Source: Petroclostridium xylanilyticum (GTDB taxonomy: Bacteria; Bacillota; Clostridia; SK-Y3). From it: a DNA stretch of 64,000 nucleotides. How positions within the stretch are numbered: position 1 is the stretch's first letter; the number at the start of each line of letters is the position of its first letter. Where the stretch lies: the NCBI RefSeq assembly GCF_002252565.1, contig NZ_NPML01000003.1, positions 62,001-126,000 on the forward strand. Reading direction: 5' to 3'. This document shows positions 49,146-63,933 of this stretch, piece after piece. Both the position numbers and the translations under genes were made by a program. The notes under the pieces are model-generated. The model was not told the origin of the DNA. It saw nothing but the letters and a program-made list of their open reading frames with translations, and searched no databases.

Positions 49146-49177
49146 AAAAGCTGTAGTATTAAGTAACTACAGCTTTT
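49146..49177. terminator. Bidirectional terminator
   Basis: AAAAGCTGTAGT (49146-49157) pairs exactly with ACTACAGCTTTT (49166-49177). It separates the GH5 gene from the convergent minus-strand operon and overlaps the stop codon of the latter's last gene. Confidence 0.85.
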
Positions 49178-49790
49178 ACTTATATGCACAGATTTCTTCA
49201 ATGTCCTTTAATTCAAGGGATTTTGTCTTAATTACTGTTTGTCCGATAAAATCATTTATGAATAGAACATATTTAAAAGTAGAAACCTTATCATGCTCTT
49301 CTTGAAAATGACCATTAAATACCCGTTGAATAAGTTTTGGATCAAACTGCTGTTCATAAGGTACATATATTTGGCAGCCTATTTGAAGTAAAGGTGTTAA
49401 AAAGTCTTTATCATCAAAATGCTGCTTAAGGCCGAAGGTAATTATTTGGTGCACTTCCTGCCTTTTTTCAGATTGAAGCGGGATGCCTAGAATATTTGGA
49501 CCGGCATTACTGGCTTTAAAAGTCCTATATTCAAAGTCAATTGCCAAGGCACTTAATGTATTTCTGAATTGATCTATACTGTTTTTAACTTCTAACTGGG
49601 TATTAAAGCATAACGAAGTATCTATATGAACAATAATGCTGTCATATTTAAGTATATTTTGGAGTATGTTTACACCAATTGGGACAATACTTCCCTTTTT
49701 TTTAGGGTAAATAATAGTGAAATTCTTTATTGAATCATTAATAGAAGTATTAATTTTAAGTTCACTGTTTAAAAAATCCAAGAGTCCCAT
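49176..49790 (-). CDS. Unknown protein at the end of the methyl-transfer operon
   Basis: A 204-residue soluble protein with no signal peptide, membrane helix or recognised motif. Alternating strands and helices and a single Cys-poor chain suggest an alpha/beta fold. GGGAGG lies before ATG 49790. It is downstream of the CobW GTPase on the same strand with an 84-bp gap and may share its transcript. Its role in corrinoid or methyl metabolism is only suggested by position. Confidence 0.6.
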   Translation of the reverse strand: MGLLDFLNSELKINTSINDSIKNFTIIYPKKKGSIVPIGVNILQNILKYDSIIVHIDTSLCFNTQLEVKNSIDQFRNTLSALAIDFEYRTFKASNAGPNILGIPLQSEKRQEVHQIITFGLKQHFDDKDFLTPLLQIGCQIYVPYEQQFDPKLIQRVFNGHFQEEHDKVSTFKYVLFINDFIGQTVIKTKSLELKDIEEICAYK

Positions 49791-49874
49791 GACATTCCTC
49801 CCGAAAATGTATTTTACACAATTACTTTAGATTGTGCTTTTATTATATCATATTCTCACCATAATACAATGCCG

Positions 49875-50969
49875 TTATTTCATCCTATATTTAGGTTGGG
49901 GTCTGCCTGGTTTGAAACACTCGGTTTTTATGTCACTGATAACAACATTTATTTCAGTGCAAAGTTCCCTTAGAGTATCCTCGACAAGAGGTTTAAGCTT
50001 TTCCGGTTCTATATTGATGCGGGCATTAATGATTAAATTAGCCTGGTTTATACTTTTTTTCATTGTTCTGTTAAAATCAACGTTATCAAAAATACTTGTT
50101 AAACTTGCCTTTGCCCAGTCATCTTCAGCAATACCGTAAATTTTCAAATGAGCAATTTCAATATTCTGTTGTTTCAGCTTTTCTCTTAGATTTTCCATCA
50201 GGTTTTTGATAAAAGCATTCATATCAATAAATTGATGGGTATTTAACAAAACGGAACTGTTTAGCCATCCTAGATATTCTTCTGCCGCAGCATAGGTCTC
50301 ATAATCTATATCTAAAGTGTTTTTCATTGATGACTGTCTTTTGATGACCATCGCTGCCCATTTATCGATATCTACATTTTCTTTGGCTGAAACAGTCAAA
50401 ACATCTACACCTTTAAATTCCTGTTTTAGGAAAGCGCATATAGAACTTATCTCATCTTGAGAAAGCGTATCAATTTTGTTAAGGATGATAAGGTCAGCTT
50501 CTTCCAACTGCTTACGAAATAAGTAGTTAATCTCATTGGAAAAGAGGGATGAGTTTTTTTCTATCATCAATTTTTTTACCCTTTTGGGGTCCACAACAAT
50601 GGATAGGGGGCTAAGGGTGAACTGCCGGGTATAGCTCAATTGTAAGGGTTTAAAAATAGTAGCAATAAGGTCAGTACAGCTGCCTACGGGTTCTGCAAGT
50701 ATGATATCCGGCATTTCGTTTTCAGCAAGCTGGTTAACTTTTTGGGTAAATTCGTCAAAATTACAGCAAAAGCAGCCGCCGGTAACTTCAAGGACAGGCA
50801 GCCCCTCCTTGGCCAAAAAATTTGTGTCAACCAGCTGGCTGCCTTGGTCATTGGTCACAATACCGATTTTTTTCTCTATGCTTAAAAGGTACTTTGCCAT
50901 GTTTAGTATAGAAGTAGTTTTACCGGCTCCTAAAAAACCGCCAATTACGACAAGGTTTGTTTTTATCAC
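49875..50969 (-). CDS. CobW/P47K-family GTPase
   Basis: A 364-residue G3E GTPase of the CobW group, metal or cofactor chaperones. Walker A is GGFLGAGKTTS, the metal-binding CxCC-type motif is GGCFCC, and the base-specificity motif is LNKID; a CobW-C-like domain occupies the C-terminal third. GTG 50969 follows GGAGG. It ends a tight minus-strand unit after the UroD-type methyltransferase and the thioredoxin-like protein, so it probably serves metal or corrinoid loading, or corrinoid reactivation, for the methyl-transfer system. Confidence 0.9.
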   Translation of the reverse strand: MIKTNLVVIGGFLGAGKTTSILNMAKYLLSIEKKIGIVTNDQGSQLVDTNFLAKEGLPVLEVTGGCFCCNFDEFTQKVNQLAENEMPDIILAEPVGSCTDLIATIFKPLQLSYTRQFTLSPLSIVVDPKRVKKLMIEKNSSLFSNEINYLFRKQLEEADLIILNKIDTLSQDEISSICAFLKQEFKGVDVLTVSAKENVDIDKWAAMVIKRQSSMKNTLDIDYETYAAAEEYLGWLNSSVLLNTHQFIDMNAFIKNLMENLREKLKQQNIEIAHLKIYGIAEDDWAKASLTSIFDNVDFNRTMKKSINQANLIINARINIEPEKLKPLVEDTLRELCTEINVVISDIKTECFKPGRPQPKYRMK

Positions 50970-50972
50970 CTA

Positions 50973-51260
50973 TTATGCACCTCCGGTTTGAATCATTGAA
51001 ATTAACTGCTGCTTTGAAGGGAGTGAACCTGCAGTAACCTGTTCGTCATTTATAAGGATGGCTGGAAATTTTTCAACTTCCAGCCCTTTGACTAAATGAG
51101 CTTGTTTTGGGTGTTCCAGCTCAATGATTTCAACTTCTACGTTATTATATTCTTTTTGTATCTTTGCAAGGATTTCTTTAATCAGCCCGTCTATGATTAT
51201 ACAAGCAGTACATGGTTCTTTAAGGGAAACCACTTTTACATTTACTTTTTGATGTACCAT
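50973..51260 (-). CDS. Small thioredoxin-like protein
   Basis: A 95-residue thioredoxin-fold protein with the active-site motif PCTAC and the cis-Pro region KFPAILIND. It resembles the C-terminal domain of the adjacent UroD-type methyltransferase (motif SCAPC) in length and layout, so the two may share an ancestor. It may deliver electrons or keep thiols reduced for the corrinoid system. It overlaps neither neighbour but lies 35 and 3 bases from them. Confidence 0.82.
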   Translation of the reverse strand: MVHQKVNVKVVSLKEPCTACIIIDGLIKEILAKIQKEYNNVEVEIIELEHPKQAHLVKGLEVEKFPAILINDEQVTAGSLPSKQQLISMIQTGGA

Positions 51261-51295
51261 GCTTGTACCCTCCTAATAAACCATTAGAGTTTGAA

Positions 51296-52651
51296 CTATA
51301 GATTCTTGGCATCCACAGCTTCTTGTATGCTCTTTTTCAATTGCTCAACATCAGGAATAATACTTACATATTTAATTACACCATCAATACAGATGGTTGG
51401 AATATTTTGAACACCAAGCTGTAACATACAAACAACTGCTTCTTTTTGTTTTACCTTGTGTTCTATATACCTTACTTTATCTCCAAAACCTGCAGCAGCA
51501 GCCCTCACAGCTTCCATCATATACTGGCAGGGGGCACAGGATTCAGAATCCAGGGTGATAACATCAATAATAACCTGTTTTTCCTTAGCGTAGTCGGGAA
51601 GCTTTACTTCTATACCTTCCAGGACATTGGTATATTCAAGGAATTCTGCAACTTCTCCATGAACAAGGCTGGTTATTGCTTTTACATTTTCTACCGGAGT
51701 TGCAAAAGGCATATCACATCCTGGAGAAAGAATATAACCTTTAGTACCACCGATTGCCATACAATTTTTGGCATCATTAATATTATCTACTGGGGTACCG
51801 AAAAGCATGGTAACAGTAAGTTTGATGTTACCCCCAAAAGAAACGCCGTATTTTTGGCAGACTTCTTTTACATATTCCAAAGGAATATTTTCATCAATGG
51901 ATACATTATGGGGTTTGCATTTACACATTTCTTCAATATTATTCTTAGCATTACCGCATACAAAGAATGAGCAGCCTTTATCCCTAGATTTAACATAATC
52001 AAATATAGCAGTAGCGTAGGGAGATACAAACTCTGCAAAATTATCCGGCGAAATCTGAGAAGTCATTGGGTCGACAACAGCTATAATATCTACACCGGCA
52101 TCCAGATACATCCTGGATGTATTAATACACACCTTTTTACAGAATTGCATTAATTTATGGACGTTTTCAGGTTCATCAATCATTTCATAGAATATATCGG
52201 TACCCATTAAGTGGAGGGCTAATGTGAAAGGTCCGGTTATAAGTCCATATATGGCGATTTTATCGCCTAATTCTTTACAAATCCTTCGTGTTGCATCCAG
52301 TACAACTGGAAATCTTCCATCCTGTTCACCAGGAATTTTTAAATCTTCTAACTTCTTACCCTGTTCCAGGGGGTGAGTTGTAACAGATGGGGGATTGGTT
52401 TCAGCATATTTTAATTCGCATCCCATTGCTTCTGCTTCAACCTGCAAATCAAATAAAGCCGGCAGTCCATCCGGACGGTAAAGTTCATAGGCTTTTAATA
52501 CTCCCTTTACAATATTGTCACTGCTTTTAAAAAAATCTTCTGCGCTTACACCAATTAAAGACGCGGCGTGGCAGCCGACAAAAGGCACCCAGGGAGCGCG
52601 CTCAACCCCTTTATTATAAAGTGCATCTAAAACTAACTGCTTTGAATTCAT
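51296..52651 (-). CDS. UroD-family corrinoid methyltransferase with a C-terminal thioredoxin-like domain
   Basis: A 451-residue fusion. Residues about 1-345 form a uroporphyrinogen decarboxylase-like TIM barrel of the MtaA/MtbA methyltransferase type, which moves methyl groups from corrinoid proteins to a thiol. In MtbA the zinc is held by His-x-Cys and a later Cys. Here Cys232 (FFVCGNAK) and Cys312 (SPGCDMPF) are kept but the His position is Phe230. Residues about 360-451 are a thioredoxin-like domain with SCAPC (Cys372, Cys375) that plain MtbA lacks. The start is ATG 52651, with AAGGAGG 8 bases upstream; an upstream ATG lies before that site. The substrate and acceptor are unknown. Confidence 0.82.
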   Translation of the reverse strand: MNSKQLVLDALYNKGVERAPWVPFVGCHAASLIGVSAEDFFKSSDNIVKGVLKAYELYRPDGLPALFDLQVEAEAMGCELKYAETNPPSVTTHPLEQGKKLEDLKIPGEQDGRFPVVLDATRRICKELGDKIAIYGLITGPFTLALHLMGTDIFYEMIDEPENVHKLMQFCKKVCINTSRMYLDAGVDIIAVVDPMTSQISPDNFAEFVSPYATAIFDYVKSRDKGCSFFVCGNAKNNIEEMCKCKPHNVSIDENIPLEYVKEVCQKYGVSFGGNIKLTVTMLFGTPVDNINDAKNCMAIGGTKGYILSPGCDMPFATPVENVKAITSLVHGEVAEFLEYTNVLEGIEVKLPDYAKEKQVIIDVITLDSESCAPCQYMMEAVRAAAAGFGDKVRYIEHKVKQKEAVVCMLQLGVQNIPTICIDGVIKYVSIIPDVEQLKKSIQEAVDAKNL

Positions 52652-52810
52652 AACATGTTCCTCCTTCATAACTTATAAATTCTTTATTAAATATTACTCT
52701 ATTTCAGATACAAGTTATATAAATCAATTTTGAAATGTTGTACTTTTTTATGAAATATATCGATAACCAATATCAAAATTATAAATAAATTAATGTAGTT
52801 ATCGATGAAA

Positions 52811-52854
52811 TTAACCAACTTTAAAACTAAATGTTTAATCTTAAAGTTGGTTAA
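52811..52854. promoter_or_regulatory. Inverted repeat in the divergent control region
   Basis: TTAACCAACTTTAA (52811-52824) is exactly complementary to TTAAAGTTGGTTAA (52841-52854). It sits between the minus-strand methyltransferase operon and the plus-strand PocR-AraC gene (gap 52652-53045) and may bind that regulator or act as a terminator. The remaining DNA in the gap is AT-rich, with no gene. Confidence 0.5.
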
Positions 52855-53045
52855 TTATAATATGGGATAAAACACGACTTGTATATGAAAGTGAAAAAGT
52901 ACAAAAAAGATAAATATTTTTCAATACCTTATGCTGCTAAAGTAGTACTATAAGAGTGTAATTCAATATCGTCCATTTACATAAAGAATTGATTTTGATA
53001 ATATATATGTATATATATACTGTATATACTGGAAAGAGTGATAAA

Positions 53046-54362
53046 ATGGGGGTAAATAAAGAACGAGATGATGTTGGATTTGATCTGGACAGGGCAAAAA
53101 GCTGCGCTCGTATCTATAGTCATTCAGTTGGTGTTGAATGTTTTATAATTGATACCTATGGAAATTTACTATATGATACGAACAATGACCAAAGCTTTTG
53201 TAAGTTTTGTAGGAAGGTACAGGGAGTTCTAAACCGGCAGCAGTCCTGTAAAAATGTCCATTTATATGGGAGTTACCAGGCTGAGAGGTTTGGTGGAAAA
53301 TATGTATTCTTCTGTCCGATGGGCCTTGTCCATTGGGCTTCCCCTATTACAAGCGATGGCATGATGAAAGGTGCAATTTTAGGTGGTCCTGCTTTGATGG
53401 TAGATCCTGAAGAATTTTTAATGGATGATATCATCAGAAAGAATAACATTGAAGAGGAATATGTAGAGCAGTTAAGGCAGTATGTTGATGAGGTCCCGAT
53501 TATACAACCTGATAAAGTAAACAGTTTGGCCGAGACGCTTTTTATATTTGCCACTCATATTTCTGATGTTCAGCCATCCCAGTACCTTGAAGAAAGGGAA
53601 TACCTTGAACAGCAGTCAGATATATCAGAGTATATACATTATATTAAAACAATGGGCGGGAGTGAGAGTGGGTTACGAAGTTATCCGCTTGAAAAGGAAA
53701 AAGAATTATTATCCCTTATATCACTTGGAGATAAAACGGGCTCACAAAAAATACTGAATGAAATATTTGGTCACATATTTTTTTCTACCGGAGGGAATTT
53801 TGAAATTATAAAAGCCAGGGTCCTTGAGCTGGTTGTTCTACTATCCAGGGCTGCCTTGGAAGGTGGTGCTGATGTAGAACAGATATTCGGTCTGAACTAT
53901 AAATATCTAAATCAGATACATGCCTTTAAGACGGTGGAAGAATTAACTTTTTGGCTGTCCAAAATTATGATACGGTTTACGGATTGCGTATTTAATCTTA
54001 CTGATGTAAAGCATGTGGATGTAATTTACAAGGCAATAGATTATGTAAAAAGAAACTATATGAAAAAGATCACTTTAGAAGAAGTCGCTTCCCACGTTTA
54101 TTTAAGCGTTTCATATTTTAGCAAAATATTTAAAGACGAGATGAAATGTAACTTTAATGTATACTTGAATAACGTAAGAATAGAAATGAGTAAGAAATTG
54201 TTAATGGATGATTCTGTTTCCCTGGTGGATATATCAAATCTGGTAGGGTATGAAGACCAAAGTTATTTTTCAAAAGTATTTAAGAAAATAGTTGGAGTCA
54301 GCCCAGGAAAGTTCAGAGAGTCCAGGGGACAAAATATAAAAAGCCTGCAGAATAATAGTTGA
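53046..54362 (+). CDS. PocR-domain AraC-family regulator
   Basis: A 438-residue regulator. The N-terminal PocR sensory domain (about 10-170) has the expected Cys-rich pattern (FCKFCRKVQGVLNRQQSC, then FFCPMGLVHWASPI). A linker is followed by the AraC DNA-binding domain (about 335-435) with two helix-turn-helix units ending VGYEDQSYFSKVFKKIVGVS. PocR proteins control propanediol or corrinoid methyltransferase genes. It probably senses a methylated substrate or corrinoid and controls both this side and the divergent operon. ATG 53046 has only a weak GGAAAGAG site; an earlier in-frame ATG at 52989 lacks one. Confidence 0.87.
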   Translation: MGVNKERDDVGFDLDRAKSCARIYSHSVGVECFIIDTYGNLLYDTNNDQSFCKFCRKVQGVLNRQQSCKNVHLYGSYQAERFGGKYVFFCPMGLVHWASPITSDGMMKGAILGGPALMVDPEEFLMDDIIRKNNIEEEYVEQLRQYVDEVPIIQPDKVNSLAETLFIFATHISDVQPSQYLEEREYLEQQSDISEYIHYIKTMGGSESGLRSYPLEKEKELLSLISLGDKTGSQKILNEIFGHIFFSTGGNFEIIKARVLELVVLLSRAALEGGADVEQIFGLNYKYLNQIHAFKTVEELTFWLSKIMIRFTDCVFNLTDVKHVDVIYKAIDYVKRNYMKKITLEEVASHVYLSVSYFSKIFKDEMKCNFNVYLNNVRIEMSKKLLMDDSVSLVDISNLVGYEDQSYFSKVFKKIVGVSPGKFRESRGQNIKSLQNNS

Positions 54363-54410
54363 TTATAGCCGTATAGGCTAATTAGATAAAAATGACAAGG
54401 GGGAATATGC

Positions 54411-55049
54411 GTGAGTATTTTAAATGAGATTTCTCAATACTTACAGCAAGGAAGAGCAAAAAATGTTAAGGAACTGGTTCAAAAGGCAATTGACGAGGGA
54501 ATAGATGCTAAAACTATTCTCGAAGAAGGGCTTTTATCTGGTATGAGCATCATTGGTGAAAAGTTTAAAAATAATGAGGTTTATGTTCCGGAAGTTCTTA
54601 TTGCAGCTAGAGCTATGAATGCAGGTACAGAGTTATTAAAGCCTTTATTGGTATCCAGCGGTGTTAAAGCTGTAGGAAAAGTTGTATTAGGTACTGTTAA
54701 AGGTGACCTCCATGATATCGGCAAGAATCTCGTTAGAATGATGATGGAAGGTAAGGGATTAGAGGTTATAGATTTAGGAATAGATGTTCCTGCCGAAAAA
54801 TTTATTGCTGCTGCTAAAGAACAGGGTGCTCAAATTATTGCTTGTTCAGCCTTGCTGACAACAACCATGAATGAAATGAAAAATGTTGTAGAAGCAGCTA
54901 AGGAAGCAGGAATTAGAGATAGCGTTACAATTATGGTAGGTGGAGCACCTGTAACTGATAATTTCTGTAAGAGCATTGGTGCTGATATCTATACTCCAGA
55001 CGCAGCTTCCGCCTCAGACGCAGCAGCTAATGTCTGCAAGGCTTCTTGA
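54411..55049 (+). CDS. Methyltransferase cognate corrinoid protein (MtbC/MttC type)
   Basis: A 212-residue two-domain protein. An N-terminal helical cap (about 1-85, with EVLIAARAMNAG) precedes the B12-binding Rossmann domain. The lower cobalt ligand is His101 in GDLHDIGKNLV, and GVDVP-like and IMVGGAPV loops follow. It accepts a methyl group on cobalt and passes it on. Its expected partner here is the divergent UroD-type methyltransferase. A methyltransferase that loads it (MttB/MtgB or similar) is not in the window. The GTG start has AAGGGGG upstream; a terminator follows the stop. Confidence 0.92.
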   Translation: MSILNEISQYLQQGRAKNVKELVQKAIDEGIDAKTILEEGLLSGMSIIGEKFKNNEVYVPEVLIAARAMNAGTELLKPLLVSSGVKAVGKVVLGTVKGDLHDIGKNLVRMMMEGKGLEVIDLGIDVPAEKFIAAAKEQGAQIIACSALLTTTMNEMKNVVEAAKEAGIRDSVTIMVGGAPVTDNFCKSIGADIYTPDAASASDAAANVCKAS

Positions 55050-55235: not shown

Positions 55236-56483
55236 ATGAATGTAGTAGTGATGGGGATTGATCATTCAACGCCTATAGAAATTCGGGAAAAGGCTTCTTA
55301 TACTTCAGAAAAGTTCCAGCGCGCCTGTGAGTATTTGGCGGGACAGGATGTCATAAAAGAATTTATTATTTTATCTACTTGTAACCGCAGTGAGATCTAC
55401 TGCTGTACAGAAGAAGCAAGCCTATTACCAAAAATTCTTTTTGACTTTTTCGTCAATTTCCATGGGATTGACAGAGTTCACCTGAATAAATATGGGTATT
55501 TGGAAAGCGGGGAACGGGCAGTACTGCATCTTTTAAATGTTGCATCAGGGCTTAAATCATTAGTAATAGGTGAAGATCAGATATTAGGACAGATTAAGGC
55601 GGCTCATAGAACTGCCATGCATCGTAAAAGTACCGGTCCCATATTAAACCGATTATTTTTTACTGCGGTTTCTGCTGCGAAAGAGGTAAAAAATATTACA
55701 GGTATTTCCCAAAATTCTCTTTCTATCAGTTCAGTAGGAGTAAAGTTTATTGAAGAGTACTTTGGCGGGAAAATTCAGCATAAAAAAGTTTTGGTTATTG
55801 GCACTGGGAAGATGGGCAGGCTGGCAGTTAAAAAACTTATATCTGCAGGTGTGCATGATATTATTATGACGAATAGGACACATCATCATGCAGTAGAATT
55901 TCAAAAAGAAATTAAAGGGACAAAAATTATTTCATATGATGAAAGATATCACTATTTAGATGATATAGATGTAGTGATTTCGTCCACCAGCAGTCCCCAC
56001 TATACACTTACCTATGATAAATTTTGCATGGCTAGAAATAGCGGGAAAGAATTATGTATATTGGACCTTGCCGTGCCAAGGGACATCGAAAAAGAAATAG
56101 GAAATTTACAAGGTGTTCACCTTTTTACAATAGATGATCTTGATAAAGTAGTGCAACAAAATTTACAGAAAAGATTTGAACATTCAAAAGAAGCGCAAAA
56201 TATCTTGCAGAAATATTGCTGTGAATTTTTAGAGTGGATAAATGCTTATGATAGGCTTGAATCCATTAGAGCCATCCATGTATATGGCAAAGGCGTGTTG
56301 GAAAGGCAATACCATTATGCTATAAGAAAACTGAATATTAAAGATGAAAGAGAAAAGAAGATCATATATAAAATTTTGAAAAACTCTATTGATGCTGTCA
56401 TAAATCCTATTATAGAGAGTGCCAGGGAACAGGAACAGAATATGTCATGGGATGAGTTCATTAAAAAATCTTTTGAAAAATAG
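55236..56483 (+). CDS. hemA: Glutamyl-tRNA reductase
   Basis: A 415-residue NADPH-dependent enzyme that reduces glutamyl-tRNA to glutamate 1-semialdehyde, the first step of the C5 tetrapyrrole route. The catalytic cysteine is in LSTCNRSEIY. The Rossmann domain has VIGTGKMG, and a C-terminal dimerisation helix bundle follows. GEDQILGQIKAAH is a family signature. It heads an operon that continues through hemL and sits beside the corrinoid methyl-transfer genes. Confidence 0.96.
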   Translation: MNVVVMGIDHSTPIEIREKASYTSEKFQRACEYLAGQDVIKEFIILSTCNRSEIYCCTEEASLLPKILFDFFVNFHGIDRVHLNKYGYLESGERAVLHLLNVASGLKSLVIGEDQILGQIKAAHRTAMHRKSTGPILNRLFFTAVSAAKEVKNITGISQNSLSISSVGVKFIEEYFGGKIQHKKVLVIGTGKMGRLAVKKLISAGVHDIIMTNRTHHHAVEFQKEIKGTKIISYDERYHYLDDIDVVISSTSSPHYTLTYDKFCMARNSGKELCILDLAVPRDIEKEIGNLQGVHLFTIDDLDKVVQQNLQKRFEHSKEAQNILQKYCCEFLEWINAYDRLESIRAIHVYGKGVLERQYHYAIRKLNIKDEREKKIIYKILKNSIDAVINPIIESAREQEQNMSWDEFIKKSFEK

Positions 56484-56494
56484 AGGTGGGATAT

Positions 56495-57139
56495 ATGAAT
56501 TTCTATCCTGTGTTTATAGATATTACGAAAAAAAAATGCGTTGTAGTGGGAGGAGGGAGAGTTGCCTATAGAAAAATAGTAACACTGTGCGGCTATGGAG
56601 CTGTTGTTGAGGTGATTAGCCCTGAAGCGATTGAAGAGATAAAAAAATTATCAGAAAAGGGTAGCATTAACCTGAAAATAAAAAAATATTCAGAGGATGA
56701 CATTATAGACGCATTTATTGTATTTGCTGCTACTAATGATACTGAAGTAAATAATAAGATAACCGGGGATGCAAAAAAATTAAATATTTTAGTCAATTGT
56801 GCTGATAGCCCATACGACTCTTCATTTATTTCACCTGCTGTTTTCAATCAAGGTGATTTAACTATTGCCATATCTACCGGGGGGAAATTTCCTAAATTAT
56901 CCCAAAAGATTAAGGAGCAGTTAAAGAGTCAATACAGTACAGAATATCCCTTTATTATAGACGCTTTAGAACAATTAAGGCAAAAAGCTTTAATGGGGAT
57001 TAATGATGAAGAAACCAGAAAAAAATTGTTTGACAGGGTTGTAGAAGATGATATCATTCAAATTGCAATGAGTAAAGGTTGTGAAGCGTTTAAAGAGCGT
57101 ATAAACCGTATATATGAGGAGTATTGTCATGAAGAATAA
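56495..57139 (+). CDS. Precorrin-2 dehydrogenase/sirohydrochlorin ferrochelatase-type protein (SirC)
   Basis: A 214-residue Met8/CysG-N-type enzyme that oxidises precorrin-2 to sirohydrochlorin with NAD. The Rossmann motif is VVGGGRVAYRK and the Asp-containing active region NCADSPYDSSFISPAV. ATG 56495 follows GAGGTGGG; a GTG at 56486 is inside that site. Overlaps with the next gene by 11 bases suggest co-translation. It lies between hemA and hemC, as in many clostridia, and feeds siroheme or cobalamin. Confidence 0.9.
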   Translation: MNFYPVFIDITKKKCVVVGGGRVAYRKIVTLCGYGAVVEVISPEAIEEIKKLSEKGSINLKIKKYSEDDIIDAFIVFAATNDTEVNNKITGDAKKLNILVNCADSPYDSSFISPAVFNQGDLTIAISTGGKFPKLSQKIKEQLKSQYSTEYPFIIDALEQLRQKALMGINDEETRKKLFDRVVEDDIIQIAMSKGCEAFKERINRIYEEYCHEE

Positions 57140-58031
57140 ATTAGTTATAGGTTCCAGGGGAAGCGAGTTAGCTCTCAAACAGACCGAATGGGTCATTACA
57201 AAACTCAAAGAAAATTTTCCTGAAATGAAATATCAAATAAAAGTAATAAAAACAAAGGGTGACAGGATATTAGATGTTACGCTTAACAAAATCGGCGGTA
57301 AAGGTCTCTTTGTAAAAGAAATTGAGCAGGAACTTTTGCAAGGCTCAATTGATATGGCAGTACATAGCATGAAGGATGTTCCCACGGAAATACCGGATGA
57401 ACTGGAGATAGGTGCTGTTTCACAGCGTGAGGACCCGCGGGATGTGCTGGTATCCAGGGAAGGAAGGGATTTATACAGTTTGCCTGCCGGTGCTGTGGTA
57501 GGAACAAGCAGTCTCAGAAGGCAGGTCCAAATACTGCGACTGAGACCGGATTTAAATATTGTACCGCTAAGAGGAAATATATTAACACGACTTAACAAAG
57601 TGAAGACTGAATTTGATGCTATTGTTCTTGCTGCTGCCGGTTTAAAGCGTGCGGGGCTGGAAGCTAACATTACGCAATATTTTGCCCCAACAGAATTTGT
57701 TCCCGCTGTCGGACAGGGAATCCTGGGCATCGAAATAAGAAAGAATGACAATATTTCCCAGGAAATATTGAAGTGTCTTCATAACCCGCAAGCATTTACT
57801 TGTATACAGGCGGAAAGAGCCTTTTTAACCAGATTAAATGGAGGCTGCCATGTCCCCATTGGGGCGTATGCATGGATGGAAGGGGAAAAATTAAAAATGT
57901 ACGGCATGTTCTACCAGGGTAAGATGATAAGAGAATATGCGGAAGGCAGTGCTAATCATCCTCAGGAACTGGGAATAGCTTTGGCCGAAAAGATAATACA
58001 GCTTTATACTAATTGCCATTTGGAGGTGTAA
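57129..58031 (+). CDS. hemC: Porphobilinogen deaminase (hydroxymethylbilane synthase)
   Basis: A 300-residue enzyme joining four porphobilinogens into hydroxymethylbilane. The dipyrromethane cofactor Cys is in LNGGCHVPIGAY. The conserved RGSELALKQTEWV start, HSMKDVPTE and GTSSLRRQ (substrate-binding arginines) are present. ATG 57129 follows GAGGAG. It overlaps the previous gene and is followed at once by the cobA-hemD fusion. Confidence 0.97.
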   Translation: MKNKLVIGSRGSELALKQTEWVITKLKENFPEMKYQIKVIKTKGDRILDVTLNKIGGKGLFVKEIEQELLQGSIDMAVHSMKDVPTEIPDELEIGAVSQREDPRDVLVSREGRDLYSLPAGAVVGTSSLRRQVQILRLRPDLNIVPLRGNILTRLNKVKTEFDAIVLAAAGLKRAGLEANITQYFAPTEFVPAVGQGILGIEIRKNDNISQEILKCLHNPQAFTCIQAERAFLTRLNGGCHVPIGAYAWMEGEKLKMYGMFYQGKMIREYAEGSANHPQELGIALAEKIIQLYTNCHLEV

Positions 58032-58033
58032 AA

Positions 58034-59536
58034 GTGGAAAAAGGAAAAGTATATCTTGTAGGTGCCGGTCCGGGAGATTATAAATTAATAACTTTACGGG
58101 CTTTGGAACTAATACAAAAAGCTGATGTTTTGGTATATGATAGATTGGTAAACAAAAAGATTTTGAAATACCGGTCAAAAAGCTGCGAACTGGTTTATGT
58201 GGGAAAAGAGCCGGACCACCATACTTTAACCCAGGATGAAATCAATGATGTATTAATACAAAAAGCACAAGAGGGTAAAAATGTAGTTAGGTTAAAGGGG
58301 GGAGACCCTTTTATTTTTGGCCGGGGAGGAGAGGAAGCAGAATATATAAGACAGCACGGACTGGAATTTGAAATTGTTCCAGGAATCTCATCTTTTTATT
58401 CTTGTCCCGCATATGCCGGTATACCTGTTACCCATAGGGAATTTAGTACCTCGGTACATGTAATAACCGGACATGAAGAAGAAGGAAAAGAAGATGTTGA
58501 TTACCCTACCCTGGCAAAACTGGAAGGTACGTTGGTCTTCCTAATGGGAATGAAAAATATAGGAATGATAAGCCAAAAATTAATAGAGAATGGTAAAAGG
58601 CCTGATACACCTGCAGCAGTCATCCACTGGGGTACTACATCAAGACAAAGGACAGTGACAGCAGCGCTGGAGGATATTGAAAAGGTTGTACGGGAGAACA
58701 ATATAACTTCTCCTTCTGTGTTAGTAATAGGTAATGTAGTGACTTTGCAAAAAAAATTGGATTGGCTGTCATCCAGACCTTTATTTGGAAAAAGGATTCT
58801 TGTGACACGTACCTCTGCACAGGCAGGTACACTGGCAGATAAGATTGAAATGCTTGGTGGTGATGTTGTTGAATTTCCTACTATAAATATCACCAAGCCG
58901 GTAGATTATAGACCTTTAGATGAAGCATTAAATAACATTCATATGTATTCATGGATCGTATTTACCAGTGTTAACGGTGTAGAAGGCTTTTTTACAAGGA
59001 TGAAGGAGCTGAAAATAGATATAAGAAAATTGGCTGGAATAAAGATATTTTCGATAGGTCCTAAAACAAAAGAAAAAATTGAGGAATTGGGACTGAATAT
59101 CGATATTATACCTGAACAATTCAACAGTTATGGTGCTGAAAAAGTAATTAAGGAGCACATTCATGAAAAGGATAGGGTCTTAATACCTACTTCAAATATT
59201 GGAAGGGAAACCATTTATAATATTATTGCAGAAAAAGGTGCAACGGTTCATAAAGTAGAGGCTTACAGAACCCAGCCTAATGATGAGATAGACCTGGAGG
59301 TTTTAGAAGATTTGAGGAAGGGTGATATAGACATCATTACTTTTGCAAGTTCGTCGGCAGTAGAAAACTTTGTAAAAATTGTTGGTACTGACATTGGACA
59401 GACAAAAGTATGCTCTATTGGACCTGTGACCACTGAAACCGCCAATTCTCTTGGACTTGGGGTGGCTGGAACAGCTTCAAATGCAACGATAGACGAACTT
59501 GTAAATTGTGTTTTAAAAGTTTGCGGGGTGAAATAA
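58034..59536 (+). CDS. Uroporphyrinogen-III methyltransferase/synthase fusion (CobA-HemD)
   Basis: A 500-residue two-domain enzyme. Residues about 1-245 are SUMT/CobA, which methylates uroporphyrinogen III to precorrin-2 with S-adenosylmethionine (motifs [29 protein letters not shown]). Residues about 250-500 are HemD, which closes hydroxymethylbilane to uroporphyrinogen III ([13 protein letters not shown]). Fusion commits flux to siroheme and corrinoids. GTG 58034 follows GGAGGTG (58022-58028). It overlaps hemB by one base. Confidence 0.95.
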
Positions 59537-60525
59537 TGGACATTATCAAAAGGCCTAGAAGACTAAGATCAAGTGAAAACATAAGAAATCTGGTAAGAGA
59601 AACAGTTTTAACTTTAAATGATTTTATATATCCAATTTTTGTAGTTGAAGGAAATGGAATAAAAAATGAAATATCTTCTCTACCTGATAATTATCATCTC
59701 TCGATAGATATGCTAAAGAAAGAGATCGAAGAAATTTATAATTTAGGTATCCGGGCAGTATTACTTTTTGGAATACCCAAAGAAAAAGATGAAGCCGGAT
59801 CCGGAGCATATGCCATAGGTGGTATTGTGCAAAAAGCAATCAGAGAGATAAAGAGAATATGTAAAGAGATGATGGTAATAACCGATGTATGTTTATGTGA
59901 GTACACCAGCCACGGTCACTGCGGTCTTATTAGAAACGGAGATGTACATAATGATTCAACATTGGAACTAATTGCGACTACTGCATTGTCGCACGTGGAG
60001 GCCGGGGCGGATATGGTTGCTCCTTCTGACATGATGGATGGAAGGGTAGCCGCCATAAGAAAAAAATTGGATGAAAATGATTTTAACAATATTCCCATCA
60101 TGGCATATAGTGCAAAGTACGCTTCAGCATTTTATGGCCCTTTCAGGGAAGCTGCTTTTTCTGCGCCGCAGTTTGGAGACCGAAAGACATATCAAATGGA
60201 CCCTGCTAATAAGCTGGAAGCGTTAAGAGAAGTGGAATTAGACATTGAAGAAGGTGCTGATATTGTCATGATAAAACCTGCTCTGTCCTACCTTGATATT
60301 ATCAACGAGGTGAGAAATAAGTGTAATCTGCCGGTAGCAGCCTATAATGTAAGTGGTGAGTATGCGATGCTTAAAGCTGCAGTAAAAATGGGATGGCTGG
60401 ACGAAAAGAAAGCTGCTGTAGAAATGCTTACGTCTATAAAAAGAGCAGGTGCAAATATTATTATTTCTTACTATGCAAAAGATATTGCACGGTGGATGAA
60501 GGAGGATGGAATACATGCAATATAA
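59536..60525 (+). CDS. hemB: Porphobilinogen synthase
   Basis: A 329-residue TIM-barrel enzyme condensing two 5-aminolevulinates to porphobilinogen. The metal-binding cysteines are in [14 protein letters not shown], and the Schiff-base lysines in [18 protein letters not shown] and [14 protein letters not shown] 59536 overlaps the upstream stop (TAATG). Its 3' end overlaps hemL by 11 bases. Confidence 0.97.
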
Positions 60526-61801
60526 GCGTTCGTCCGAACTGTTTGAAGGAGCCAAAACATACATTCCCGGAGGGGTTAATAGCCCTGTAAGGGCATTTAA
60601 ATCGGTAGGGTTAATACCACCATTCATTAAAAGGGCGAAAGGCTCAAAAATATATGACGAGGATGGAAATGAATATATAGATTATGTTGGATCATGGGGA
60701 CCCATGATTCTGGGACATGCCCATGAGAGAGTGCTGGAGGCTATTAAAAATGCTGCTGAAAATGGTACAAGTTTTGGAGCCCCCACAGAATTAGAAGTAA
60801 AATTGGCCCAAATCATATGTGAGTTGGTCCCTTCTGTAGAAATGGTTAGAATGGTCAATTCCGGGACAGAAGCTACGATGAGTGCCATCAGACTTGCCAG
60901 AGGTTATACTGGAAGAAATAAAATCATTAAATTTGAAGGCTGCTACCATGGGCATTCCGATAGTTTGCTGATTAAAGCCGGGTCGGGTGCACTTACCTTT
61001 GGAATCCCGGATAGTCCTGGTGTTCCGGCTGATTTTGCAAAACACACCTTATCTGCATCCTATAATGATCTTGGAGAAGTAAAAGAACTGTTTAAAAAAT
61101 ATGGTGAAGATATTGCAGCAGTAATCGTCGAACCGGTAGCAGGAAATATGGGTGTGGTAGTTCCGGAAAAAGATTTTTTATTCGGGTTAAGAGAAATTAC
61201 GACGCAGTATGGTGCACTGCTTATTTTTGATGAGGTTATGACCGGATTCAGGGTATCTCTGCATTGTGCACAGGGATTATATAATATCACACCTGATTTA
61301 ACTACCTTCGGTAAAATTATTGGCGGAGGTCTTCCTGTTGGTGCTTATGGCGGGAGAAGAGAAATTATGGAAAAAATATCTCCGATAGGCCCGGTATACC
61401 AGGCAGGAACGCTATCAGGTAACCCTATTGCGATGGCTGCAGGTCTGGAAACCCTGACAATATTAAAAAATAATCCTGGAATCTATGAAGATCTGGAAAC
61501 TAAGTCTGCCAAGCTGGAAGATGGGCTGAAAAGCAATGTACAGAAGTTAGGAATACCAATGTTTTTTAATAGAGTTGGTTCTATGCTTTGTATGTTCTTT
61601 ACCAGGGAATTTGTAAGAGATTACAAGAGTGCCACTACTTCCAATACCCACAAATTTGCACAATATTTTAGAAAAATGTTGGAGTCAGGCATTTATATCG
61701 CACCTTCCCAATATGAAGCTATTTTTATTTCAAATGCACACACAATGGAAGACATAGAAAAAACAATAGAAAGTTCCTATCATGCCTTAAAAAATATATA
61801 A
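60515..61801 (+). CDS. hemL: Glutamate-1-semialdehyde 2,1-aminomutase
   Basis: A 428-residue class III aminotransferase making 5-aminolevulinate from glutamate 1-semialdehyde. The PLP lysine is in [19 protein letters not shown], and FDEVMTGFR and [16 protein letters not shown] are family motifs. ATG 60515 lies 9 bases after AAGGAGG (60499-60505); an ATG at 60506 touches that site. It ends the operon; a hairpin element follows. Confidence 0.96.
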
Positions 61802-63585: not shown

Positions 63586-63933
63586 ATGAGGTTGGATAAA
63601 ATAAAAGAAATTTTAGATGCAGAAGTATTAACGGGAGAGGAATTTCTAGATATTGAAGTAGTATCAGCCTGTGGTTCTGATTTAATGAGTGATGTGCTTG
63701 CTTTTGTAAAGGATCAGGCACTTTTGCTTACCGGTTTGGTCAATCCTCAGGTGGTAAGGACTGCGGAAATGATGGATATAAGGGTTATCGCTTTTGTAAG
63801 AGGAAAAGTACCAGATAAAGAGATAATAAAACTGGCAAAAGAAAAAGATATGGTCCTTCTTACTACAAAACATCCTTTATATATTGCATGCGGGCTTCTA
63901 TACAGTGCTGGACTTACTGGCAAGGAGGCTTGA
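63586..63933 (+). CDS. DRTGG-domain protein
   Basis: A 115-residue protein matching the DRTGG domain, a regulatory module found in phosphotransacetylases and as free proteins beside clostridial iron-iron hydrogenase genes. VVSACGSDLMSDVLAFVKDQ and LLTGLVNPQVVRTAEMMDI are typical. GGAAGGG lies before ATG 63586. The next gene starts 10 bases after its stop, so it probably begins a hydrogenase-linked operon that continues beyond the window. Confidence 0.85.
   Translation: MRLDKIKEILDAEVLTGEEFLDIEVVSACGSDLMSDVLAFVKDQALLLTGLVNPQVVRTAEMMDIRVIAFVRGKVPDKEIIKLAKEKDMVLLTTKHPLYIACGLLYSAGLTGKEA

Follow-up and report, generated by a model that had tools for sequence, protein, structure and literature searches.

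How can a corrinoid methyl-transfer module work if no enzyme encoded beside it loads the corrinoid with methyl groups? The question is raised by a 64,000-nucleotide stretch of the Petroclostridium xylanilyticum genome (contig NZ_NPML01000003.1, positions 62,001 to 126,000; hereafter the window), in which a module at 49176–55049 encodes a UroD-type methyltransferase fused to a thioredoxin-like domain (UroD-Trx), a corrinoid protein, a PocR-type regulator and helper proteins. The original prediction, made from this sequence, stated that no MttB-, MtgB- or MtaB-like gene and no activator was present, and suggested that a distant partner might supply the methyl group. The statement holds for the window, which encodes neither a substrate methyltransferase nor the corrinoid activator RACo, but not for the genome: the substrate enzyme is absent from the window only, and a methanol methyltransferase gene, mtaB, sits elsewhere in the same genome.

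A profile search of the genome placed mtaB on contig C19 (PF12176, 1.5e-182, over the cut-off). A corrinoid gene, mtaC, lies directly downstream, giving the arrangement of a PF12176 MtaB adjoining a corrinoid protein. The C19 MtaB scores under the NCBIfam equivalog cut-off (434 versus 720) and contains all three of the motifs SIESIGG, DTACGF and HKDCGY, which we take to carry the MtaB zinc ligands, while the corrinoid protein of the window and the C19 MtaC share 66% identity. A single RACo gene was found, on contig C7 beside cobT. C7 also encodes a DUF1638 protein. It shares 70% identity with the one from a cluster, in another genome (G062), that also has corrinoid, PocR, RACo, CobW and UroD-Trx genes. 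MTTB-family proteins were absent from the whole genome in the profile search. The suggested distant partner is supported by the mtaB–mtaC and RACo–cobT pairs, and a motif of the relatives' UroD-Trx genes also occurs before mtaB.

This motif was found by comparing the gap between the UroD-Trx and PocR genes with the region upstream of mtaB and with the regions upstream of UroD-Trx in relatives. Two operator-like sites are predicted in the window:

52735–52756, plus strand: operator-like site 1, ATGTTGTACTTTTTTATGAAAT, upstream of UroD-Trx; the best hit in 1.53 Mb, at 24.9 bits.
52886–52907, minus strand: operator-like site 2, weaker and uncertain, upstream of PocR; 13.9 bits, comparable to the null maximum.

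Within the 135.6 kb of the genome scanned first, the sequence TTGTACTTTTTNATGA is matched exactly at just two places, window position 52738 and 146 bp upstream of mtaB. Site 1 also has an exact 20-mer in common with the UroD-Trx upstream region of a related locus (L005), a match that is independent of the mtaB comparison. When a 22-bp matrix built solely from other genomes was used to scan 1.53 Mb (∼40% of the genome), the top two sites were the one in the UroD-Trx/PocR gap and one at C19 position 110052 (L076:9843), 127 bp upstream of mtaB (22.5 bits). When 211 upstream regions from Clostridia were ranked, the first six places went to those of UroD-Trx in four genomes, of a corrinoid gene of genome G003 and of our mtaB, after which the score dropped from 22.8 to 15.6 bits; the RACo genes of G002 and G001 were among the next. 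The motif is weak before hemA, cbiM, a second PocR gene and the DUF1638 gene. Together, the pattern predicts a PocR-controlled methanol-type regulon with dispersed genes and a putative PocR operator. The third-best site of the genome scan (L202:16339 on C19, 21.9 bits) lies between GntR-like regulator and transketolase-like genes, and may be chance or a member of the regulon. The second PocR-AraC gene, 70% identical to that of the window, is also on C19, where it stands immediately before cobalt-uptake genes encoding CbiM, a PDGLE-domain protein, CbiQ and an ABC ATPase; the whole group lies at ∼307.5–311.9 kb (L205:7522-11883).

Within the window, an ORF check located all six ORFs of the module stretch, and the gene types originally assigned to them were upheld by the coordinates and the Pfam and NCBIfam matches. 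Five of the six encode the following:

51296–52669, minus strand: UroD-Trx, with an MtaA/UroD fold (residues 9–337) and a C-terminal thioredoxin-like domain (C378-A-P-C381).
50973–51260, minus strand: free thioredoxin-like protein with a CTAC motif (Thioredoxin_3, 2e-9).
49875–50969, minus strand: CobW/COG0523 G3E GTPase, a predicted metal chaperone (PF02492, 1e-30; GGCFCC motif).
52989–54362, plus strand: PocR-domain AraC-type regulator, divergent from UroD-Trx (PF10114, 9e-29, and HTH_18).
54411–55049, plus strand: free-standing corrinoid protein with a GDLHDIGK motif (PF02310, B12-binding, 9e-27; PF02607, B12-binding_2, 2e-20).

Comparison with homologues puts the probable start of UroD-Trx at ∼52651 and that of PocR at ∼53046, versus the TTG at 52989 from which the latter ORF was listed. 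The UroD-Trx fusion is seen in Pfam as URO-D (4e-70) followed by Thioredoxin_3 (4e-6), and the GTPase has both the nucleotide-binding domain and the CxCC metal motif of COG0523/CobW proteins. The corrinoid protein scores under the cut-off of TIGR02370, the methyltransferase cognate corrinoid protein model (199.1 versus 215.3 bits), with both its B12-binding Pfam domains over theirs.

Conservation of the gene set was assessed in 70 loci collected with a UroD-Trx query, ∼50 of which carry full-length relatives, spread over Clostridia, Kiritimatiellota, Verrucomicrobiota and others. CobW is the next gene downstream of UroD-Trx in 38 of the 50 loci, across several phyla; the free thioredoxin lies between the two in 10, all from Clostridia. 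Many clostridial genomes also have a PocR gene adjoining or close to a corrinoid gene. In two related Clostridia (L009, L011) the dispersed genes form one cluster, comprising RACo, corrinoid, PocR, DUF2284, CobT, MtaB, a second CobW, UroD-Trx, Trx, CobW and a second PocR. The Kiritimatiellales order is corrinoid, RACo, DUF1638, UroD-Trx and CobW, often with a PF02574 methyltransferase, and some of these clusters also carry a MetF-pterin fusion and FTHFS. RACo is encoded in 44 of 51 genomes examined. In G001 and G003, mtaB is an isolated gene; the one free corrinoid protein of the window's type found there is encoded near a PocR gene. The grouping of the module genes exceeds chance, since the UroD-Trx/CobW and PocR/corrinoid associations recur. 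In Desulfocicer (L052:2433-7569) a corrinoid gene, UroD-Trx in two pieces, an MtmB-family gene between these and CobW lie together in a genome with 23 MTTB matches. In Petroclostridium L014/L134 UroD-Trx is split, with in-frame stops near the 5′ part, and may be a decaying copy.

UroD-Trx is the unusual component of the module, and matches no named enzyme. Its AlphaFold2 model (pLDDT 90.6, pTM 0.85) is closest in fold to MtaA (4ay7; Foldseek E = 8e-24, target TM 0.91), then to UroD and then to MetE. Across 39 aligned members F236-V237-C238-G239, C318, C84, H34, H153, C378 and C381 are invariant, and D259-E260 is invariant or nearly so. Every aligned member has Phe (F236) at the position of the MtaA zinc His and keeps both Cys ligands (C238 and C318); His occupies this position in MtaA, in MetE (ligands in PMC7857596) and in a UroD protein encoded on C7. 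In a tree, the UroD-Trx sequences form one group separate from the other UroD methyltransferases included; deep support is modest and some branches are long. Searches of the open-access literature found no description of a UroD-Trx/CobW family, and nothing on UroD, CobW, corrinoid and Kiritimatiellota together. The C7 UroD keeps the HxCG motif, and its type is lacking in several relatives. At L126, L128, L129 and L158, corrinoid proteins that belong to the window clade or lie close to it adjoin members of another UroD family, which resembles the C7 gene (L077:8123-9232) and likewise has an intact HxCG; L129 also has RACo and DUF2284.

Where might the methyl group go? Pterin_bind matches no proteins of the genome other than DHPS and MetH, PF02007 (MtrH) not having been searched there. 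G003 likewise has only these two, and G002, G005, G007 and G010 have DHPS and/or MetH only. Because no Pterin_bind-type folate methyltransferase was found, the strongest candidate for the acceptor side is UroD-Trx, alongside the C7 UroD with its intact HxCG; the genome has four PF01208 matches in all, on three contigs. The original prediction named a co-regulated substrate methyltransferase elsewhere, making the system a standard one, as a finding that would tell against it. mtaB comes close to this, but the system falls somewhat short of standard in lacking an accompanying Pterin_bind-type folate methyltransferase.

We propose, with about even confidence, that the window holds the regulator, corrinoid carrier, UroD-type methyltransferase and helpers of a scattered corrinoid methyl-transfer regulon, the other parts being MtaB and a second MtaC on C19, and the ATP-dependent activator RACo with CobT, and DUF1638, on C7. 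PocR would sense an inducer and activate the UroD-Trx/Trx/CobW genes, its own gene with that of the corrinoid protein, and mtaBC. MtaB would transfer the methyl group of methanol to a corrinoid protein, and RACo would restore Co(I). CobW may insert a metal, most likely Zn, into UroD-Trx and/or MtaB. UroD-Trx, acting like MtaA, would pass the methyl group on to a small thiol, homocysteine and sulfide being candidates, while its CxxC domain and the free thioredoxin-like protein would hold the active-site Cys pair reduced. PocR binding, methanol as the substrate here, the acceptor-side role of UroD-Trx and the roles of the thioredoxins and CobW are inferred, as is a thiol acceptor, the last from the relationship of UroD-Trx to MtaA and MetE.

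Several observations weigh against this proposal. The third site in the genome scan is close in score to the mtaB site (21.9 versus 22.5 bits), and the training sites were chosen by likeness to a pattern first seen with mtaB, so that the test is not fully independent. The mtaB site runs in the opposite orientation to the majority of sites, and only weak sites precede the G003 mtaB and our RACo/cobT. MtaB was found in just 12 of 50 UroD-Trx genomes, many of them incomplete metagenome-assembled genomes, and in the close relative G002, which has UroD-Trx, PocR–corrinoid and RACo genes, neither MtaB nor MTTB is matched. In a tree, the corrinoid protein of the window falls among UroD-linked, not MtaB-linked, corrinoid proteins (support 97/93).

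Some of these points fit a different role for UroD-Trx, as a substrate methyltransferase or two-way, MtsA-like enzyme that charges the window corrinoid protein with methyl groups drawn from a methylated thiol or another donor; MtaBC would then be a methanol system of its own, sharing the regulator. We consider this possible, if rather less than probable. UroD-superfamily substrate methyltransferases are known, namely MtvB, OdmB, VdmB, MtoB, CdmB, CmuA and MecE/MecC (PMC13222342), and MtsA is bifunctional (PMC8630106). The idea is kept alive by genomes lacking MtaB: neither G002 nor Pontiella (G023) has an MtaB or MTTB match, yet both encode UroD-Trx, a corrinoid protein and RACo. In Kiritimatiellales clusters the PF02574 methyltransferase, sometimes with MetF-pterin and FTHFS, could be the acceptor side. 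The separate clade of the window corrinoid protein also agrees with it. However, L009/L011 and Desulfocicer L052 have, alongside UroD-Trx, an MtaB or MtmB-family protein that would already fill the role of substrate enzyme, and neither the window nor the C19 context indicates a methylated-thiol substrate.

It is improbable, in our judgement, that UroD-Trx is not a methyltransferase but an accessory factor, working with CobW and the thioredoxins in the maturation, metal loading or repair of MtaB or the corrinoid protein. Its occurrence with differing substrate enzymes or none, the replacement of the zinc His by Phe in all aligned members and the constancy of CobW, its most constant neighbour, would suit such a role, but the retention throughout of C238, C318, the MtaA-like barrel and the invariant D259-E260 looks catalytic, and most genomes already encode RACo as a separate corrinoid activator (44 of 51). 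That the module is a chance assembly of unrelated neighbours is very hard to credit given the 38 of 50 loci with CobW after UroD-Trx, the recurrent PocR–corrinoid pairs and the common motif, although the 204-aa protein and heme operon discussed below are such neighbours and at L006 UroD-Trx has no adjacent Trx or CobW.

The proposed regulon resembles several known systems in part. With the coenzyme M methyltransferases MtaA, MtbA and MtsA (MtaA/CmuA family, TIGR01463) it shares the fold, the Cys-Cys of the zinc site, a corrinoid partner and an mtaB in the genome. UroD-Trx differs in scoring 179.3 bits against the TIGR01463 cut-off of 235.4, in having F236-x-C238 and C318 in place of the His-x-Cys...Cys zinc site, in its fused thioredoxin domain and in its bacterial host. 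Coenzyme M is not expected in a bacterial system. A second comparison is with the type 1 mlp clusters of Clostridia (Kountz and Balskus, PMC10418091), corrinoid clusters without a folate methyltransferase, for which thiol/selenol chemistry was proposed. These have UroD-superfamily proteins, a corrinoid protein and an activator. That paper ties His-Cys-Cys sites to S- or Se-methyl transfer, makes no mention of CobW and, in the sections consulted, does not discuss Phe-Cys-Cys. It describes two or three Mlps per cluster, His-Cys-Cys except for some Mlps1, whereas our module has a single Phe-Cys-Cys protein, which carries a Trx domain, along with CobW and PocR. Judged by that description, Mlp2 and Mlp3 together with corrinoid protein and activator do not occur here, the cluster having one UroD protein. 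COG0523 subfamily 13 genes cluster with mtaA, mtaB, mtaC and ramM, also in a Clostridium (Haas et al., PMC2770081). The link between a COG0523 gene and methanol methyltransferase genes is the same, but here the genes are split over several contigs and UroD-Trx replaces MtaA; metal loading by CobW would fit this published linkage. Finally, the O-demethylase and chloromethane systems (MtvB, MtoB, CdmB) also combine a UroD-fold methyltransferase with a free corrinoid protein, but in this genome UroD-Trx has no Pterin_bind partner beyond DHPS and MetH. PDB matches of UroD-Trx were MtaA (best) and UroD, with none to CdmB (9rui), the sole such enzyme compared, at E = 0.001.

The sixth ORF, a 204-aa protein that the original prediction counted in the module, matches no Pfam or NCBIfam model and was rejected as a member, its close homologues sitting away from any UroD-Trx. 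One in Petroclostridium (46% identity) is beside hemA, and one in G052 (41%), where no UroD-Trx match was found, is beside a homologue of the window gene at 63586–63933. From these positions, the 204-aa protein is an older syntenic neighbour of the heme operon, with the module sitting between the two. The tetrapyrrole operon does directly follow the module as predicted, with hemA, a sirC-like gene, hemC, cobA/hemD, hemB and hemL at 55236–61801. An Rfam search of window 42000–64000 gave no riboswitch or other match. A selenoprotein lead from NCBIfam names (TsoC, HUIPC, CobW-related selenoprotein) was dropped, the scores being far under the cut-offs and a review of the subject giving no link. 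On C7, short regularly spaced direct repeats with repeated peptides in two frames (L223:1820-2342) look like a CRISPR array.

UroD-superfamily substrate enzymes, CobW–mta clustering and folate-less corrinoid clusters in Clostridia are already published (PMC13222342, PMC8630106, PMC2770081, PMC10418091). A neighbourhood without MttB- or MtaB-like genes does not mean that the substrate methyltransferase is missing, and such an absence alone is not proof that there is no substrate enzyme, because UroD-superfamily proteins are themselves known substrate methyltransferases. The predicted PocR operator is directly testable. A doubtful but larger possibility is that UroD-Trx represents a novel class of thiol methyltransferase that depends on a corrinoid: a His-less Cys-Cys metal site, served or gated by a built-in thioredoxin, would move methyl groups from methanol to a thiol such as homocysteine in non-acetogenic anaerobes without folate or coenzyme M. 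The conserved UroD-thioredoxin fusion with CobW is found in many anaerobes, gut-associated bacteria included, and suggests a route by which the methyl groups of methanol, which pectin breakdown releases, could be disposed of in organisms without a known folate methyltransferase.

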